From the IMG/VR virus record IMGVR_UViG_3300035698_007528, positions 1 to 58,762 of that record: a DNA stretch of 58,762 bases; one strand, written 5' to 3'. This document shows, in pieces, positions 35,160 through 48,525 of the stretch. Origin of the DNA: a virus. A program made the position numbers and the translations under genes. The notes beneath the pieces are model-generated. The model did no database searches. It saw only the letters and a program-made list of their open reading frames with translations, and was not told the DNA's origin. The first letter of the stretch is position 1. Each line of letters begins with the position of its first letter.

Positions 35160-35513
35160 ATGAGTTACACCACTCGTGATCGGTTCATCTCGACTTATAC
35201 TGAAGCGGAAGCGTACCTGGGTGGCAGGCACGAACGGCGCCTGCCGGGCGTGGCCACGGTACTGCATTACGTGACGGGCAAGGCTGGCCCGATAGCAGTC
35301 AGATACCACTACACCGACGTGGTAACGTTCACTGAGAACGGCGTGGTCACACTAGACACAGAAGGCTACACGACGGTCACAACCAAGGCCTGGATCAATC
35401 AGTACATCCCTGCTGGCTACTACGTTTTTCAAGAGCACTACGCATGGTATCTGCACTGCCGGTTTGGCAACGTTGACTTTGAGGATGGCATGGCAGTGAT
35501 GGAGGGTAAGTGA
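35160..35513 (+). CDS. Conserved hypothetical early protein
   Basis: A 117-residue protein from ATG 35160 behind AAAGGGGC, right after promoter P3. It contains 'IAVRYHYTDVVTF...VTLDTEGYTTVTTKAWINQY' and 'EHYAWYLHC...FEDGM'. I recognise this as a common small domain in phages and plasmids with no known function ('T..K..IN.ylP.g..v...W.v', 'F.DGM'). Confidence 0.65.
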   Translation: MSYTTRDRFISTYTEAEAYLGGRHERRLPGVATVLHYVTGKAGPIAVRYHYTDVVTFTENGVVTLDTEGYTTVTTKAWINQYIPAGYYVFQEHYAWYLHCRFGNVDFEDGMAVMEGK

Positions 35514-36280
35514 TGAATCTCCAAGCATGGAACGATCAGGTCAAGGCTATGGCGATGACGACCAGTATCCTCGGGCATGAGTTCGTGGGGCTCCCCATGG
35601 GGGGCTCCAAGGATGGCAAGCTCCGAGGGCCCCGAGTGCGCAACGACTTGAAAGGCTTCATCTTTAACAACTGCCATTTCAAGGACTGCGATTTCTCCTA
35701 CATGACGCTGGCCTATGGGTTGTTCAAGGACTGCGAACTTGAGCGGTGCAACCTTGAAGGCGTGACTTTCAAGCGGGTGTCGATGATGGAGTGCTCGATC
35801 ACCGGGTGCTCGTTTGAGCAAGCCGACATCAGCGGCACCGTGATGACCAACGTCACCGTCTGGGATTCCAGCTTCTACAACTGTGTCATGGACAAGGTTG
35901 TTGCCATGGGCGGCTCCTGGGTAACGTGTCTGATGCAGGGCGCTACGCTGGATCGGGGCGTGATCGAAGGCTTGAAGCGTGCCAACACCGGCATGTACTG
36001 TGCAGGCTCAGTGATGGGTTACGAGGGTATTGGCATCATCAGCGAGGACAATGCGCTGTGGATCGAGTTCTGTGGCCACTGGATGTCGGCCCGGCACTGG
36101 CGGGCGGCGCTGGCTGAGCGATTCGACGAGAACGCCATCTGTGGCGACGCAGGGACACAAGCCGAGTATCGCAAGATGATCAGCGCACTAGAGATTTTGG
36201 CGGCTGGCGATGAGCCCAGTCGGGACAAGTGGATGCAGTATAGCCGGTGCAAAGTATTTGCAGGGAAGGAGATCGGATGA
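35513..36280 (+). CDS. Pentapeptide-repeat protein
   Basis: A 255-residue protein; ATG 35513 overlaps the previous TGA. Residues ~45-135 repeat a five-residue pattern with F/M/L at the centre ('CHFKDCDFSYMTL', 'CELERCNLEGVTF', 'CSITGCSFEQADI'), predicting a quadrilateral beta-helix. Such proteins include DNA mimics that protect gyrase or inhibit DNA-binding enzymes. An early position is compatible with an anti-host or anti-defence role, which is inference. Confidence 0.7.
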   Translation: MNLQAWNDQVKAMAMTTSILGHEFVGLPMGGSKDGKLRGPRVRNDLKGFIFNNCHFKDCDFSYMTLAYGLFKDCELERCNLEGVTFKRVSMMECSITGCSFEQADISGTVMTNVTVWDSSFYNCVMDKVVAMGGSWVTCLMQGATLDRGVIEGLKRANTGMYCAGSVMGYEGIGIISEDNALWIEFCGHWMSARHWRAALAERFDENAICGDAGTQAEYRKMISALEILAAGDEPSRDKWMQYSRCKVFAGKEIG

Positions 36281-41551: not shown

Positions 41552-42178
41552 ATGGTCAAGGAGTTACGATCAATAGATGACCTGACCCCGGACAGAGGCA
41601 ACGCCAACCTTGGCACGGCCCGAGGTCACTACATGATCGAGGATAGCGTGAGGCGCCTGGGCGCTGGGCGGTCAGCGTTGGTCGATGCCGAGGGCAACAT
41701 CATAGCGGGCAACAAAACCGTCGAGGTTGCCGAATTGTTGGGCATACCTATCAAGATTGTCCAGTCAGACGGTGAGGCCCTGGTCGTCGTTCAGCGCACC
41801 GACCTATTGTTGAACGACGAGAACGACAACCGGGCCCGGCTCCTGGCCTACCTGGACAACCGGGCCAGCGAGGTAGGATTATCATGGGACGCTTTGCAGG
41901 TAGCGAGCGACCTTGAGAGCGGCGTCGAGCTGGACAGGATGTTTTTCAGCGAAGAACTCACGACCCTATTTGAGACGGCTGGGCTCCCTGAGTTTGTGGA
42001 CGATAACATGCCCGACGACCTGCCTGACCCTGGCCTTGTGGGCGGCGGGGATCAGGCCCAGCGCGTGATCGTGACCTTTCAGAACTCGGAGGAGCGCACC
42101 CAGTTCCTGGACTATTTTGGTTTGGAGGACAAGGGCAACGCCGTGATCTACAAGTGGGGTGAGATGAATGGCGAATAA
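41552..42178 (+). CDS. ParB/sulfiredoxin-like protein A
   Basis: A 208-residue protein from ATG 41552 behind TGGAGG. The N-terminal ~95 residues hold the ParB-N/Srx-like core: 'MIEDSVRRLGAGRSALVD', 'GNIIAGNKTVEVAELLGI' and 'LVVVQRTDL'. The middle has 'RARLLAYLDNRASEVGLSWD', and the C-terminal domain differs from paralogue B. Family members bind nucleotides and act as DNA-binding CTPases, kinases or nucleases. It overlaps the radical SAM gene by 11 bases. Confidence 0.65.
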   Translation: MVKELRSIDDLTPDRGNANLGTARGHYMIEDSVRRLGAGRSALVDAEGNIIAGNKTVEVAELLGIPIKIVQSDGEALVVVQRTDLLLNDENDNRARLLAYLDNRASEVGLSWDALQVASDLESGVELDRMFFSEELTTLFETAGLPEFVDDNMPDDLPDPGLVGGGDQAQRVIVTFQNSEERTQFLDYFGLEDKGNAVIYKWGEMNGE

Positions 42179-43412
42179 GTTTTATGAAAGCCCGCGCTGG
42201 TCAGGTGAGATACCCGATTGCGCGATGCCCATGACGTTCGACACCTACAGCGTGTGCAGCTACAACTGCCAATATTGCTTCTCTGCATACCAGCGTGATT
42301 TAGGTGACGCCAAGGACGCATACCGCCACAAGGATGTTAGGTCGGTCAACGTCGAAAAAGTAAAAAAGATGTTCACCGACCCAGACAGCTCACAGTTTGG
42401 GCCGTTCATCAAGCGCAAGTTTGTTATGCAGTGGGGTGGCCTGAGCGATCAGTTTGATGAGTTTGAGCGACGCCAGGGGGTAACGCTGGAGCTGATGCAG
42501 TTTTTCCGCGAGATCGAATACCCCATCAGTTTTTCGACCAAGGCGGCGTGGTGGGCGTATGATGAGCGCTACATCGAGTGTTTCAAGGGTTTTCCTTGGT
42601 GGAACGTGAAGTTTTCGATCATCACGCTAGATGAGCAAAAGGCACGGGCGGTAGAGAAGGGTTGCCCAACCCCAAGACAGCGCCTGGACGCCATGGAGGC
42701 CGCTGCAAAGTTCGTTGGGGGCGGCGTGACCCTGAGGCTACGCCCCTTCATCATTGGCATGAGCGATCCCAGCTATCTTGACCTGATCAGAGAGGCCCAC
42801 AATCGGGGCGCCACGGCCCTGAGCACCGAGTTCTTCTGTCTGGAGAGCCGGTCCCCTGGGGGCGTGGCCACGCGCTACCCGGTGATCAGCGATGCCATAG
42901 GCCAGGACGTGTACAGCTTTTACCGGCGCTACTCACGGGGCAACGGCTACCTACGCCTGAATCGCAACATCAAGCGCCCGTATGTCGATGAGATGGAGAA
43001 CCTATGCAAAGAGCTGGGCATGAGGTTCTATGTCAGCGACGCCCATTTCAAGGAACGGTGCGAAAGTGGGTGCTGCTGTGGGCTGGGAGAAGAGTGGAAC
43101 TACAGCCGTGGGCAGTGCTGCGAGGCCCTGGTCATTGCTCGCAAAACCGGGCGCGTGACCTGGGCAGAGATCGAGCCCGACCTGGCCTATGCTAAAACGT
43201 TTTTGTGGGGTCGGGCCAGGGGCTACAACAACAACACCTCAGAGAAGCGTGGCAAGTTCTGGGGCATGACGATGTATGACTACCTGCATTATCTGTGGAA
43301 TCATCCAAAAGAAGGTCAGGGCCCCTACAAGATGTTTGGGGGCATCATCAAGCCGGTTGGTCTCGACGCGAACGGTGATTTGATCTATGAGCTCGACGAA
43401 ACGAGGGCGTGA
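42168..43412 (+). CDS. Radical SAM enzyme A
   Basis: A 414-residue protein. 'CSYNCQYC' (~30-37) is the CxxxCxxC cluster-binding motif. 'FVMQWGGLSDQFDEF' follows and may be the SAM-binding strand-loop. The C-terminal part has a Cys-rich segment 'CESGCCCG' (~298-305) and 'CCEAL' (~317), suggesting an auxiliary cluster or zinc site. Overall it recalls spore-photolyase-like radical SAM proteins (DNA-acting), but the substrate is unknown. It lies between two ParB-like paralogues with overlaps on both sides. Confidence 0.7.
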   Translation: MANKFYESPRWSGEIPDCAMPMTFDTYSVCSYNCQYCFSAYQRDLGDAKDAYRHKDVRSVNVEKVKKMFTDPDSSQFGPFIKRKFVMQWGGLSDQFDEFERRQGVTLELMQFFREIEYPISFSTKAAWWAYDERYIECFKGFPWWNVKFSIITLDEQKARAVEKGCPTPRQRLDAMEAAAKFVGGGVTLRLRPFIIGMSDPSYLDLIREAHNRGATALSTEFFCLESRSPGGVATRYPVISDAIGQDVYSFYRRYSRGNGYLRLNRNIKRPYVDEMENLCKELGMRFYVSDAHFKERCESGCCCGLGEEWNYSRGQCCEALVIARKTGRVTWAEIEPDLAYAKTFLWGRARGYNNNTSEKRGKFWGMTMYDYLHYLWNHPKEGQGPYKMFGGIIKPVGLDANGDLIYELDETRA

Positions 43413-44026
43413 TGAATATCAACGATCTGAGACCAGACGAGCAGAATGCCAACCTCGGCACCGATCGAGGGCGCGAAATGTTACGCCAGAGCCTCATCGA
43501 CATGGGGGCCGGACGGTCAGCGCTGATTGACGATGGCGGCAACATCATAGCAGGAAACAAAACCGTCGAGGCCGCCAGGGCCCTGGGCATACCGATCCAG
43601 GTTATAGACTCAGATGGCAAGTCACTGGTTGTGGTCAGGCGGACCGACCTGGACCTATACTCTGAGGCAGACGACACGGCCCGCCTTCTGGCCTATTTCG
43701 ACAACCGATCCAACGAGGTAGGATTATCATGGAACGCCACGCAGATGGCTGCCGACATGGAGCGAGACCTTGATCTCGCGCCGCTGTGGACAGACGGCGA
43801 ACTGAGCCGGTTCACTGAGCAGTCAGAAGGCCAAGCCGTAGCAGAGGAGTTTGCTGATCAGTTCGAGCAGGAGGTGGCCGACCTGGACGGTATGCAGGAC
43901 GCCAATATCACAATCGTCGTCCCGGCCAAATACGAGCAAGAGATACGCACATGGTTGGCTCATGGCGAACGAGAGACAGGGGCCGGGCTAGGCCGAGGGG
44001 TGATGATCCAATGCGGATTGCTCTAG
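43412..44026 (+). CDS. ParB/sulfiredoxin-like protein B
   Basis: A 204-residue protein from ATG 43412, overlapping the previous TGA. It is a paralogue of protein A over ~115 residues: 'GAGRSALIDDGGNIIAGNKT', 'LVVVRRTDLDL', 'ARLLAYFDNRSNEVGLSWN'. The C-terminal part is acidic, with 'ITIVVPAKYEQEIRTWL'. Both paralogues contain a GATTATCA site at the same codons (GLSW). It overlaps the next radical SAM gene by 16 bases. Confidence 0.65.
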   Translation: MNINDLRPDEQNANLGTDRGREMLRQSLIDMGAGRSALIDDGGNIIAGNKTVEAARALGIPIQVIDSDGKSLVVVRRTDLDLYSEADDTARLLAYFDNRSNEVGLSWNATQMAADMERDLDLAPLWTDGELSRFTEQSEGQAVAEEFADQFEQEVADLDGMQDANITIVVPAKYEQEIRTWLAHGERETGAGLGRGVMIQCGLL

Positions 44027-45141
44027 TCAACGCCACGCCCAATGCCAAGATGTACCCGCTGGGCCTGCTGAAGATAGGGGCATGGCGCAAGCACCTGGGC
44101 GATGAGTGCGCCCTGTTCATGGATGATCTACCGGCGCCGGGAGATTTCGATCAGATATGGGTAAGCACGCTGTTCACGTTTGACCAACCCCACGCGCTCG
44201 GGATTATCAATGAAGCCATGAAGCGGGCGTCTCGGGTCTGGGTAGGCGGCATAGCGTCGTCACTGATCCCCGAGCCCTACCTCGCAACGGGCGCCGACGT
44301 TCACATGGGCCTATTGCAGGAAGCGGAAGGGTTCGCCCCAGACTACTCGCTGTTACGCCACCCACCTCAGTACAGCATAGCCTATACAAGCCGTGGCTGC
44401 GTACGCAAATGCCCCTTCTGCATGGTGCCCAAGCTAGAGCCCGACTTTCAGGATCGGCCTGCATGGCCCAGTGACCTCAACGATTCTAACAGGATCATGT
44501 TTTACGACAACAACTGGCTGGCCAAGCCGATGGATAAGATCGTCAGAGACGTGAGGGAGATACGGGCCCTGATCGAAGCGGGCCAGATCAGCAAGGTCGA
44601 TTTCAACCAGGGCCTGGACTGTCGCCTACTTACCGACGATCATGTTGACCTGCTACGCGGCCTACCGATGAAACCCATCCGATTTGCTTTCGACGGCATG
44701 CAAGAGGACGGTTCCTTTCAGAGAGCGATTACCGCCATGGCCCAGGCCGGGCACAAGGTCTTTATCAACTACACTTTGTACAATTTCACAGACCGACCAA
44801 CAGACTTTTACTATCGACTCAGGGAGCAGGCCCGCCTCACAGAGGAGCTAGGGGTGATGGTATGCGCCTTTCCGATGAGGTATCAGCCGATCCTCGACGC
44901 TGACACGCGCCGTGAGTATGTAGGAAGGCACTGGACCATGCCCCAACGCAAGGGATTTATGGCCCTGCTATCGCAACTCTCCATTGCAGGCCAGGTCTCG
45001 TTTCACAGCCTGGAGGATTTCGAGTTCTGGTTTGGCCAGTCAGAGGCCGAGTTTGCCGCGCTCCTGGCGTATCCTCGTATACGAGAGTTGGCAGCCAAAA
45101 GAGCAGGGGAGTTCCGGCTGCGTAAGGCGCGGGCAAGATGA
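44011..45141 (+). CDS. Radical SAM enzyme B with B12-binding-like N-terminus
   Basis: A 376-residue protein from ATG 44011. The N-terminal ~120 residues ('MRIALVNATPNAKMYPLGLL', 'WVGGIASSLIPEPYLATGAD') resemble the Rossmann-type domain of B12-binding radical SAM proteins, though the His for cobalamin is not evident. 'CVRKCPFC' (~130-137) is the radical SAM motif. 'FYDNNWLAKP', 'KVDFNQGLDCRLL' and 'IRFAFDGM' are later barrel strands. Substrate unknown. Confidence 0.7.
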   Translation: MRIALVNATPNAKMYPLGLLKIGAWRKHLGDECALFMDDLPAPGDFDQIWVSTLFTFDQPHALGIINEAMKRASRVWVGGIASSLIPEPYLATGADVHMGLLQEAEGFAPDYSLLRHPPQYSIAYTSRGCVRKCPFCMVPKLEPDFQDRPAWPSDLNDSNRIMFYDNNWLAKPMDKIVRDVREIRALIEAGQISKVDFNQGLDCRLLTDDHVDLLRGLPMKPIRFAFDGMQEDGSFQRAITAMAQAGHKVFINYTLYNFTDRPTDFYYRLREQARLTEELGVMVCAFPMRYQPILDADTRREYVGRHWTMPQRKGFMALLSQLSIAGQVSFHSLEDFEFWFGQSEAEFAALLAYPRIRELAAKRAGEFRLRKARAR

Positions 45142-45413
45142 GAGTCACGAGTGAAGAATTGGATCGTATAGAGACTGCCTTACGGGACACCACCGATACG
45201 CTAGAGGACGTGGCTTACGCCACGGGCATAGATGTGGACGATTATCAACCCATCGTAGAACTGCTGGTCGAGCGCAACTTTGCCGAGTGCCTGGTCTGTC
45301 ACTACTGGCGCGACATGGCCACCGACGATTTGGGCGATGCCCTAGAGGTCTGCCAAGATTGCAGAGAGCTACTAGAAGGGGAGCCAGACGAAGAGGGCCG
45401 TGATGGCCGGTGA
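45138..45413 (+). CDS. Small zinc-ribbon protein
   Basis: A 91-residue protein with an acidic N-terminal helix-turn-helix-like part and 'CLVCHYWRDMA...CQDCREL', a four-Cys zinc ribbon. Coupled by ATGA to the radical SAM gene. Possibly a regulator or a small cassette partner. Confidence 0.55.
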   Translation: MRVTSEELDRIETALRDTTDTLEDVAYATGIDVDDYQPIVELLVERNFAECLVCHYWRDMATDDLGDALEVCQDCRELLEGEPDEEGRDGR

Positions 45414-46017
45414 CGTGCAAGCAGAATTGCAAGGCCCCAAGAATCAGGCATGGAAGGGGCGCCGTACCGCGCTCAGGCGGGCGGCTGACAGGCGTGAGAT
45501 TGCCGAGCGCTACCTAAGGGGCCAGCGCCAGTACATCATTGCCGAGCAGATGGACCTGACCCCAAGCACGGTATGCCGAGACATCCAGTTTCTGTGCAAG
45601 GAATGGATCAAGGCAGCGCTGGTCGATTTCGACGAAGCCAAGGCCCAAGAGCTGGCCAAAATCAACCAACTGGAGCGGACGTACTGGGAGGGATGGGAAG
45701 CAAGCAAGGAAGCCAAGGTCACGGTGAGCCGTGAGCGGCGCATCGACGGCGTATTGGTGACCCAGCGGCAAGAGGTACGATCAGGCATCGGTGATCCCAA
45801 GTTCCTGGCCGGGATCAACGCCTGCATAGCCCAGCGCTGCAAGCTACTGGGCCTCGACGCGCCGATCAAATCTCAGGAACTGCTCTATGACATGACATCA
45901 TGGCCTAGTTGGGCACTAGAGCGAGTGGCGAGCGGAGAACCGGCCCACCTGGTAAAGGCAGAAATCGAGCAAGCCACAATCGAAGGGAGCGTCAAGATGA
46001 AGGAGATCGAAGGATGA
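45403..46017 (+). CDS. terS: Terminase small subunit
   Basis: A 204-residue protein from ATG 45403. Residues ~25-65 give an HTH ('RREIAERYLRGQRQYIIAEQ', 'LTPSTVCRDIQFLCKEW'), followed by a helical region ('LAKINQLERTYWEGWEASKE') and a C-terminal tail. Order with an HNH protein then the large subunit supports the call. It would bind the packaging site, not located here. Confidence 0.7.
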   Translation: MAGDVQAELQGPKNQAWKGRRTALRRAADRREIAERYLRGQRQYIIAEQMDLTPSTVCRDIQFLCKEWIKAALVDFDEAKAQELAKINQLERTYWEGWEASKEAKVTVSRERRIDGVLVTQRQEVRSGIGDPKFLAGINACIAQRCKLLGLDAPIKSQELLYDMTSWPSWALERVASGEPAHLVKAEIEQATIEGSVKMKEIEG

Positions 46018-46962: not shown

Positions 46963-48525
46963 ATGGACACGGCGGTACAGAATACGGCCATAGCTAACCT
47001 GGAGATGAGGCGCCGGGAGGGCACATACGTGCCACCCCAGGAGCGCTTTTATCAATTTGGCCTCAAGTACCGCCATGACCCGGTAGGGTTCGCCCGAGAC
47101 TGCATCGACTGGCCAGAAGGCGAATCACTGACGCCTTACCAAGAGGATGCGCTGATAGCGATGGTCCAGGATGGGCGCCTGGCGATCAGAGGCCCTCACG
47201 GCCTGGGCAAGAGCACGACGGCGGCCATAGCGGTGATCTGGTTCGCGCTGGTTAATGAGGCCCTGGCAGAGGCAGAAGGGCTAGACTGGCTGGTGCTCAC
47301 GACTGCCAGCGGCTGGGCTCAGTTGAGCCTGTACCTATGGCCGGAAATCCACAAGTGGGCCATGAGGCTGATATGGGAGAAGATCGGCTGTGACGAGTGG
47401 ATCACAGGGCGCCAGCTTCAGGTCAGGGCCATCAAGCTAAAGCATGGCATCGCATCAGCCATTGCCAGCAATCAGCCGGGCCGCATGGAGGGCGCCCACG
47501 CCAAACGGATGCTCCTGGTTTTCGATGAGGCGAAGGAGATTCCATCAGCGACCTATGACGCTCTGGAGGGCGCGTCAGCCAACGCCGGGCCCGAGACCGG
47601 AAACGAGGCCTACGCCCTAGCCATCTCGACGCCAGGAGACAGCGCGGGCCGATTTTACGACATTCACATGAGGCGCCCAGGCTACGAGGATTGGACGGCC
47701 CAGCACGTTACGCTAGAAATGGCCATTGCGGCTGGCCGTATTTCACGCTCCTGGGCCGAACGACGCGCCAGGCAATGGGGCGAGGAAAGTGCGGTCTATC
47801 AGCGGCGTGTGCTGGGTAACTTTGCTCAGGACAGTGCAGACGCGGTGATCCCGTTGGCCTGGGTGGAGCAGTCCATGGAGCGCCACAAGGAATGGGCGGC
47901 CCAGGGGTACAGACGCCCAAACGGTGAGCCATCGGTTCTTACCAGCATCGGGGTTGACGTGGGCGGCGGCGAGGAAACGGGAGACGCCAGCACCATAGCC
48001 TACATTTACGACTATGCTCATGTGGGCGCCTTGATCAGCTATCCCAAAATGGCTGATCCCTCGGTAGCCCAGATGGAACTGGCTGGCATCATCAGGCAGA
48101 TACTGGAGGCCAACCAAGGAATCGGTTGCTATGTGGACATCATCGGCATTGGCGCCGGGTGCGTCCATCGGCTCAGGGAGCAAAAGTACGACGTCCGCGC
48201 CTACCACGCGGGCATGAGTACCACCGTGCTAGACCGTTCAGGTGAGTGGGGCTTTGTCAATTGGCGGGCCGCTGGCTGGTGGACCCTCAGAGAGTGCCTT
48301 GACCCAACGGGGCCCACGAAAACCATGATCCCGTATCAGGAAGACCTGATCGGTGAGCTAACGGCGACTCGGCGCAAGGCCTACACGAGTAAAAGTCAGA
48401 TCGTATTGGAATCAAAGGAGGAGATACGCAAACGCCTCCAGGGTGCAAGCCCTGACCGTGTAGATTCCATCATTCACGCCCTGGCGGGCCCAGGCCTGTG
48501 GCAGGCCGCCATGGCAACAGTTTAG
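46963..48525 (+). CDS. terL: Terminase large subunit
   Basis: A 520-residue protein. Walker A 'RGPHGLGKST' (~76-85), Walker B 'LLVFDEAKE' (~184-192) and the coupling region 'ALAISTPGDSAGRFY' define the ATPase. The nuclease domain has acidic positions 'GVDVGGGEETGD' (~328), 'CYVDIIGIGAG' (~388) and 'SPDRVDSIIHAL' (~496). It drives DNA into the prohead and cuts it. Residue 26-75 region ('YVPPQERFYQFGLKYRHDPV') is typical. Confidence 0.85.
   Translation: MDTAVQNTAIANLEMRRREGTYVPPQERFYQFGLKYRHDPVGFARDCIDWPEGESLTPYQEDALIAMVQDGRLAIRGPHGLGKSTTAAIAVIWFALVNEALAEAEGLDWLVLTTASGWAQLSLYLWPEIHKWAMRLIWEKIGCDEWITGRQLQVRAIKLKHGIASAIASNQPGRMEGAHAKRMLLVFDEAKEIPSATYDALEGASANAGPETGNEAYALAISTPGDSAGRFYDIHMRRPGYEDWTAQHVTLEMAIAAGRISRSWAERRARQWGEESAVYQRRVLGNFAQDSADAVIPLAWVEQSMERHKEWAAQGYRRPNGEPSVLTSIGVDVGGGEETGDASTIAYIYDYAHVGALISYPKMADPSVAQMELAGIIRQILEANQGIGCYVDIIGIGAGCVHRLREQKYDVRAYHAGMSTTVLDRSGEWGFVNWRAAGWWTLRECLDPTGPTKTMIPYQEDLIGELTATRRKAYTSKSQIVLESKEEIRKRLQGASPDRVDSIIHALAGPGLWQAAMATV

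Follow-up and report, generated by a model that had tools for sequence, protein, structure and literature searches.

Two ParB-like and radical SAM gene pairs beside phage terminase genes form a probable DNA base-hypermodification cassette

The window analysed here, a viral stretch of 58,762 nucleotides (IMG/VR record IMGVR_UViG_3300035698_007528), carries four overlapping genes, evident from the sequence and open reading frame calls, that adjoin the terminase genes and encode two ParB/Srx-like proteins (ParBa and ParBb) and two radical SAM enzymes (rSAMa and rSAMb; Table 1). We propose that the cassette is probably a phage DNA base-hypermodification locus, in which rSAMa would install a first functional handle and rSAMb would perform a second step. 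That the cassette modifies phage DNA bases at all, as a sequence-only reading of the window had suggested, is well supported, with relatives of rSAMa linked or fused to established or predicted base-modifying enzymes.

The same reading had described two ParB-like and two radical SAM genes that overlap, and this was confirmed: the overlaps are 11 bases between ParBa and rSAMa, 1 base between rSAMa and the ParBb ATG at 43412 (4 bases from an alternative GTG at 43409) and 16 bases between ParBb and rSAMb, for which a longer in-frame start is possible at 43951. The cassette genes are not a chance occurrence, as each enzyme has many relatives at 43–62% identity and the predicted folds are confident. 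The small four-Cys protein, also part of the original description, is present (CxxC...CxxC, with a 4-base overlap with rSAMb) but was not recovered as a conserved partner in the neighbourhoods of relatives. A gene homologous to that of the helix-turn-helix protein is found 3' of rSAMa in many loci.

Table 1 Cassette genes and neighbouring landmarks in the window
Feature	Position	Strand	Basis and remarks
ParBa, ParB/Srx-like	41552..42178	+	ATG start; PHROG 620/498
rSAMa, SPL-like radical SAM enzyme	42168..43412	+	C30, C34, C37; predicted fold
ParBb, second ParB/Srx-like protein	43412..44026	+	ATG start; PHROG matches, C-terminal tail
rSAMb, radical SAM enzyme	44011..45141	+	ATG start; C130, C134, C137; predicted fold
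Small four-Cys protein, zinc-ribbon-like	45138..45413	+	PHROG 2855 (function not known), 5.4e-6; membership uncertain
Helix-turn-helix protein, terminase-small-like landmark	45400..46017	+	PHROG 645, 7e-15; own-cluster HMM, 5e-43
Terminase large subunit, landmark	46963..48525	+	PHROG 2, 9e-30

The cassette consists of two ParB and radical SAM pairs, each of which recurs singly in other phages. The view of the four genes as one unit therefore applies to this DNA, where they overlap, but not more widely: in a co-conservation search the tandem was found in the window only among the rSAMa and rSAMb records compared, and the modules were otherwise separate. A single conserved four-gene unit was rejected because rSAMa occurred in 0/20 rSAMb records and a distant rSAMb homologue in only 2/41 rSAMa records, elsewhere in those genomes.

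Both enzymes belong to the radical SAM superfamily by their conserved CxxxCxxC motif (invariant in 72/72 relatives of rSAMa and 26/26 of the rSAMb family) and predicted barrel fold; their Pfam Radical_SAM matches are weak and under the curated cut-off. rSAMa represents a phage family of about 260 IMG/VR stretches. Its extra Cys cluster (C298, C302, C303 and C304), picked out in the sequence-only reading, proved to be conserved at its core, with C303–C304 and the N-terminal C18 invariant in all 72 relatives; H293 is a further invariant residue. The suggested resemblance to DNA-acting radical SAM proteins was likewise borne out, as the top six PDB matches of the predicted structure (pLDDT 91) in a fold search were to spore photoproduct lyase (SPL; E about 1e-8, TM 0.47–0.59), yet at only 14–15% identity. 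There was no match to the SPL family model PF20903 at E<0.1 and none in a PDB sequence search, and the matches in a viral structure library were all to radical SAM proteins with a generic name or none. A partial NCBIfam match to COG1533-type radical SAM enzymes (PA0069 and Rv2578c families; 2.6e-14) falls far under the 360-bit cut-off. Unlike SPL and COG1533-type enzymes, rSAMa has the extra C-terminal Cys pair and conserved motifs of its own, and is linked to modification genes rather than repair genes. In the literature searched we found no description of the rSAMa family, although prior mention in gkt573 or gkab781 is possible.

rSAMb is a candidate for the second modification step. Its predicted fold is class-B-like (pLDDT 95) with a Rossmann-like N-terminal domain, and its best fold matches are MgmA, TsrM, AprD4 and MiaB. 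It differs from these class-B-type enzymes in that a dedicated ParB precedes it. In a comparison with cobalamin-dependent radical SAM methylases, its fold is similar and its B12-binding Pfam match is weak (0.043), with none above the cut-off.

The two ParB-like proteins are 45% identical and were placed in the ParB/Srx superfamily by matches to PHROG 620 (3.7e-10 and 4.3e-11), PHROG 498, a ParB–DNA methyltransferase (5.8e-13 and 1.5e-10), and PHROG 723. Neither matched Pfam ParB_N (PF02195) in a search of the window proteins, whereas 13/21 aligned relatives did. A ParB gene lies upstream of rSAMa in 61 of 64 well-flanked loci, and a placement count gave 44/48 upstream and 0/48 downstream. The gene directly upstream of rSAMb relatives encodes a ParB or a ParB–DNA methyltransferase, and the C-terminal tail of ParBb (G-x-G-x-G-V...C-x-L-L) is typical of ParBs whose genes overlap rSAMb genes. 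ParB also recurs next to TET, carboxymethyltransferase and methyltransferase modification genes. ParB-like genes are frequent near phage terminases, which makes finding them here less informative than finding the enzymes. We propose that ParBa is an accessory or targeting partner of rSAMa; this would give a testable role, as partner subunits, to the repeatedly noted, unexplained ParB-like neighbours of DNA-modifying enzymes.

Within a DNA-hypermodification neighbourhood whose decorating genes are exchangeable, rSAMa is the element that stays constant. Among the 64 well-flanked loci, a kinase was present in 33, the amino acid:DNA transferase ADDT in 29 (always alongside the kinase), the TET-associated glycosyltransferase TAGT in 22, GNAT in 22 and SAM synthetase in 24, typically in the order (MetK)–ParB–ADDT–kinase–GNAT–rSAMa or ParB–TAGT–rSAMa. 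The rSAMa-linked kinase profile matches the kinase of Pseudomonas phage M6 (1e-15), itself Pfam PF18748 ‘5-hmdU DNA kinase’ (7.7e-18). ADDT (PF18724) matches reach 7e-25, although many are marginal or under the Pfam cut-off (M6 control, 2.3e-48), and TAGT is adjacent or fused to rSAMa (fused TAGT PF20691, 5e-21 and 4e-18). Kinase and TAGT are largely mutually exclusive (Fisher p 1.4e-5), and the rSAMa tree requires 20 changes of decorating module. That rSAMa proteins 94% identical to each other accompany a kinase in one locus (L154) and TAGT in another (L156) indicates that the constant rSAMa probably makes a common precursor or first handle. In other loci it accompanies a different glycosyltransferase, or has ParB as its sole partner. 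As a point against the hypermodification reading, some loci, the window among them, have no recognisable decorating gene; profile searches of the window record gave no kinase, ADDT or TAGT.

Three first steps are best known for the hypermodification of phage pyrimidines: a hydroxymethylase working at the nucleotide level, the TET/JBP oxygenase, which depends on oxygen, and a carboxymethyltransferase. A ThyA-family hydroxymethylase was found in 0/43 records, the window included (M6 was positive), and TET/JBP in 0/13 records with TAGT and rSAMa (both positive controls matched), suggesting that rSAMa fills the TET or hydroxymethylase slot; many of the records are fragments, so these absences are not proof. 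The window also gave no TET/JBP match, in a run whose positive control was silent. TET/JBP occurs in the matching ParB–TAGT block of aerobic-host phages: Mycobacterium phage Acadian, in which the block adjoins terminase, and Arthrobacter phage Lilmac1015 have ParB–TET–TAGT–PIG-L, and one rSAMa locus (L011) has ParB–TAGT–PIG-L–rSAMa (the Lilmac1015 TAGT and TET and Acadian TET matches are under Pfam curated cut-offs). In rSAMa loci, nearly all with anaerobic hosts, rSAMa appears to take the place of TET/JBP, and the window differs further in having no TAGT. A C5-cytosine methylase was present in only 4/30 records and not in the window, which favours thymine over 5-methylcytosine as the target and led us to reject 5-methylcytosine as an obligatory precursor. 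Spore photoproduct lyase acts on thymine in DNA.

Most likely, ParBa and rSAMa would modify a pyrimidine of the phage DNA after replication, and we infer that rSAMa acts first, on thymine and independently of oxygen. The handle would probably be a hydroxyl on the thymine 5-methyl group (5-hydroxymethyluracil or an equivalent); the pair would in this way replace both the M6-type nucleotide-level hydroxymethylase and the oxygen-requiring TET/JBP enzyme of phages with aerobic hosts. Relatives may phosphorylate this handle and then add an amino acid (kinase and ADDT, often with GNAT), or glycosylate it with TAGT or another glycosyltransferase. As the window has no kinase, transferase or TAGT, ParBb and rSAMb are proposed to act second, either on that base or on a different one. 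Before the DNA is packaged, the ParB-like proteins may load the enzymes onto it or target them to it, and the modification may protect it from host nucleases. In its most specific form, with rSAMa and ParB as an oxygen-independent thymine-methyl hydroxylase, or installer of an equivalent handle, that is the anaerobic counterpart of TET/JBP, and with the other pair as the second step in the window, the proposal is tentative; radical SAM hydroxylations are rare, which counts against a hydroxyl handle. Anti-defence would be a plausible purpose. PADLOC gave nothing specific, only a weak viperin-model match (0.0048) over the cluster-motif region, and a known defence system was rejected on that ground.

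An unlikely alternative is that rSAMa acts late, rearranging a group attached by kinase and ADDT to a handle made by an unrecognised or host enzyme. The M6 thymidine hypermodification pathway shares with many rSAMa loci a kinase, ADDT and a radical SAM enzyme; Lee et al. 2022 are said to have found that this enzyme acts late, as an isomerase. Profile similarity between the two radical SAM enzymes is remote (the SPL2 profile matches the M6 enzyme at 8e-9), and membership of rSAMa in the M6 family was rejected, as rSAMa HMMs had no M6 match. A kinase and ADDT of the M6 type are absent from the window record, M6 has the ThyA-family hydroxymethylase missing from the 43 records searched, and ParB, constant in rSAMa loci, gave no profile match in M6. 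Late action also sits poorly with the occurrence of rSAMa with TAGT alone, another glycosyltransferase or ParB only, with the pairing of near-identical rSAMa with different decorating genes, and with the absence of TET where TAGT accompanies it.

It is improbable that the pairs modify something other than phage DNA bases, such as tRNA, the pool of free nucleotides or a protein of the host. In favour of this are the versatility of radical SAM enzymes, the ability of ParB/Srx folds to bind nucleotides, and the presence of a protein methylase and of MiaB, which modifies tRNA as a methylthiotransferase, among the best fold matches of rSAMb; against it stand the rSAMa–TAGT fusion, the association of rSAMa with homologues of the 5-hmdU DNA kinase and of ADDT, the SPL-like fold of rSAMa, the terminase-adjoining position, and an rSAMb homologue directly 3' of a ParB–DNA methyltransferase. 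Very improbable is a role of the ParB-like proteins as nuclease, partition or defence effectors with the radical SAM genes as incidental neighbours. Such genes are often found in phage packaging regions, and ParB/Srx enzymes can act as nucleases (cited in PMC10853773), but the strict upstream placement, the overlapping genes, the tail type specific to rSAMb partners and the recurrence beside other modification genes all oppose it.

The DNA base-hypermodification reading has a further parallel in the CmoX/CmoY 5-carboxymethylcytosine system of Synechococcus phage S-B43, in which a post-replicative handle is likewise then decorated and many contigs encode ParBc-domain proteins; that system differs in its carboxy-SAM methyltransferase chemistry and carboxyl handle, and has no radical SAM enzyme (PMC12783734). 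If our proposal is correct, rSAMa would add a further class to the radical SAM enzymes that act on DNA. It would account for the start of this hypermodification chemistry without oxygen in phages of anaerobes, and would initiate a large and modular set of DNA hypermodifications there. Many gut and rumen phages would then be predicted to have modified DNA, which matters for restriction, for CRISPR defence and for bias in sequencing.

The link to anaerobes comes from the genomes of rSAMa-bearing relatives rather than from the window phage's own host. A single-sequence scan of GTDB genomes gave no confirmed rSAMa relative; an alignment scan gave 22 loci, nearly all in gut or rumen anaerobes. Bacteroides fragilis S82 carries a prophage with ParB–ADDT–kinase–rSAMa (locus L194), and Selenomonas ruminantium S137 one with ParB–ParB–kinase–rSAMa (L210). 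Culturable prophage carriers of rSAMa relatives exist.

The cassette lies in a window (58762 bases, the whole IMG/VR record) that also carries terminase, portal and tape-measure genes. Its two ParB-like proteins, ParBa and ParBb, share 45% identity and match phage ParB families (PHROG), with PHROG 498, the ParB part of a ParB–DNA-methyltransferase family, the best or near-best match for both. The radical SAM enzymes rSAMa and rSAMb each contain CxxxCxxC and gave confident AlphaFold models (pLDDT 91 and 95, respectively). Elsewhere in the window is a pentapeptide-repeat protein (Pfam 8e-12), possibly of DNA-mimic type.

Coordinates of the cassette and of features in related loci (L, numbered relative loci)
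Feature	Position	Remark
ParBa–rSAMa–ParBb–rSAMb	window 41552-45141 (+)	successive gene overlaps of 11, 1 and 16 bases
Small four-Cys protein		after rSAMb, 4-base overlap
Pentapeptide-repeat protein	window 35510-36280	
S-adenosylmethionine synthetase	L148:2429-3457	
rSAMa with intein	L010:8990-11248	
Shorter SPL-like radical SAM gene	L123:341-1189; L131:3574-4410; L187:3838-4680	upstream of ParB–TAGT–rSAMa
Tandem ParB-like genes	L210:6249-7480; L204:854-2052; L211:1656-2880	before kinase/rSAMa
Acadian gp2	L219:813-1691	

The sequence-only reading had taken the four overlapping genes as one unit. Across 20 rSAMb and 41 rSAMa records, no full tandem turned up beyond that of the window: rSAMa was in 0/20 rSAMb records, and rSAMb, remote and elsewhere in the record, in 2/41 rSAMa records. 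Because the tandem does not recur, we regard the cassette as two modules side by side. rSAMa and rSAMb are not related in detail; in PDB fold searches, spore photoproduct lyase (SPL) took the top six places for rSAMa (E about 1e-8), and MgmA, TsrM, AprD4 and MiaB led for rSAMb. A ParB gene, usually overlapping, lay immediately upstream in 14 of the 20 rSAMb relatives inspected. Most of these ParBs, and ParBb, end in a G-x-G-x-G-V...C-x-L-L tail, found in none of the ParBs paired with rSAMa. In Oscillospiraceae phage NatCom_21982, a ParB–DNA-methyltransferase fusion precedes the rSAMb homologue with a 20-base overlap. A DFNQxxDxR motif is common to about 480 viral rSAMb relatives (alignment scan of viral contigs). 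The majority of the distant relatives have no ParB neighbour, and several have DNA methyltransferases or further radical SAM genes in their vicinity. ParB duplication recurs in rSAMa loci (L210, L204 and L211) and is not peculiar to the window.

Relatives of rSAMa are encoded on about 260 IMG/VR stretches. Of 64 dereplicated loci, each with at least 2.5 kb of upstream sequence, 61 had ParB-like genes, 33 a P-loop kinase, 22 a GNAT, 22 a TET-associated glycosyltransferase (TAGT) and 29 a member of an amino acid:DNA transferase (ADDT) family, never without the kinase. ParB lay upstream of rSAMa in 44/48 loci and downstream in 0/48, the usual orders being MetK–ParB–ADDT–kinase–GNAT–rSAMa and ParB–TAGT–rSAMa. 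ADDT matches reached 7e-25, many being weaker and several below Pfam cut-offs (2.3e-48 for the control, the thymidine-hypermodifying Pseudomonas phage M6), and the kinase profile matched the M6 kinase gene (1e-15), a 5-hmdU DNA kinase by Pfam (7.7e-18). A TAGT-like domain was fused to rSAMa in four loci, by Pfam in L016 (5e-21), L019 (4e-18) and weakly L015, and in L017 by alignment with L016 and L019. SAM synthetase, whose carriage by phage fits radical SAM chemistry, adjoins the modification genes in L148 and 23 other loci (24/64). One rSAMa gene (L010) has an intein within CxxxCxxC (weak Pfam match, 5e-4), an active site being a typical place for intein insertion.

Kinase and TAGT were largely mutually exclusive in rSAMa loci (Fisher p 1.4e-5), rSAMa being common to both types. 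At least 20 switches of decorating module were counted across a 72-protein rSAMa tree, and the rSAMa proteins of a kinase locus (L154) and a TAGT locus (L156) were 93.6% identical. Because partners have been exchanged so freely, the product or substrate of rSAMa, something it makes or accepts, should be common to both pathways. In known systems, the substrates of kinases and TAGTs are hydroxymethyl pyrimidines or sugars on them; the ThyA family (PF00303) makes hydroxymethyl nucleotides, and TET/JBP oxygenases are the other source. ThyA was detected in 0/43 records, with M6 detected as positive control, and TET/JBP in 0/13 TAGT-plus-rSAMa records, with two aerobic-host controls detected (several TET matches fell below Pfam cut-offs); many of the records analysed are fragments. 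These observations make up the case for rSAMa as the probable first step. The TAGT of T6-like phages has been discussed previously (PMC13390438).

The simplest target for rSAMa would be the methyl group of thymine, a choice that fits the enzyme's SPL-like fold. Ready-made 5-methylcytosine was rejected as a general substrate because C5-cytosine methylases are rare (4/30 records); the window has none. Anatomy, families, folds, neighbourhoods and absences are observed; as a mechanism we infer that ParBa would load rSAMa onto replicated DNA before packaging. There rSAMa would generate a 5'-deoxyadenosyl radical and abstract hydrogen from the 5-methyl of thymine, leaving a product radical that would become a hydroxyl or equivalent handle for later decoration. 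Invariant C18/C303/C304 and H293 of rSAMa may hold a second cluster or an oxygen-donating site. ParB has been noted as an accessory to DNA-modifying enzymes, its role left open (PMC12783734). Alternatively, rSAMa could act late, as the M6 radical SAM enzyme reportedly does. The shorter SPL-like gene upstream of some ParB–TAGT–rSAMa loci is perhaps a separate tailoring enzyme, since its profile also matches the M6 radical SAM enzyme (8e-9). No kinase, ADDT, TAGT, MetK or TET was recognised in the window phage; there, with rSAMa as the first step, ParBb plus rSAMb would carry out a second radical reaction, either on the base modified by rSAMa or on a different one.

Two cultured phages with TAGT relatives, Mycobacterium phage Acadian (ParB–TET/JBP–TAGT–PIG-L–TerS–TerL) and Arthrobacter phage Lilmac1015 (ParB–TET/JBP–TAGT–PIG-L), carry an oxygenase, whereas rSAMa locus L011 reads ParB–TAGT–PIG-L–rSAMa. 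Known hosts of rSAMa phages are anaerobes (Bacteroides, Prevotella, Phocaeicola, Selenomonas, Lachnospiraceae, Methanobrevibacter and others). Thus the block that holds TET/JBP when the phage infects aerobes holds rSAMa where the known hosts are anaerobes; a more daring reading is that rSAMa is an anaerobic TET. Acadian gp2, annotated as queuine tRNA-ribosyltransferase, adjoins TAGT and PIG-L and matches the TET/JBP oxygenase model (1.4e-4); its label is probably a misannotation.
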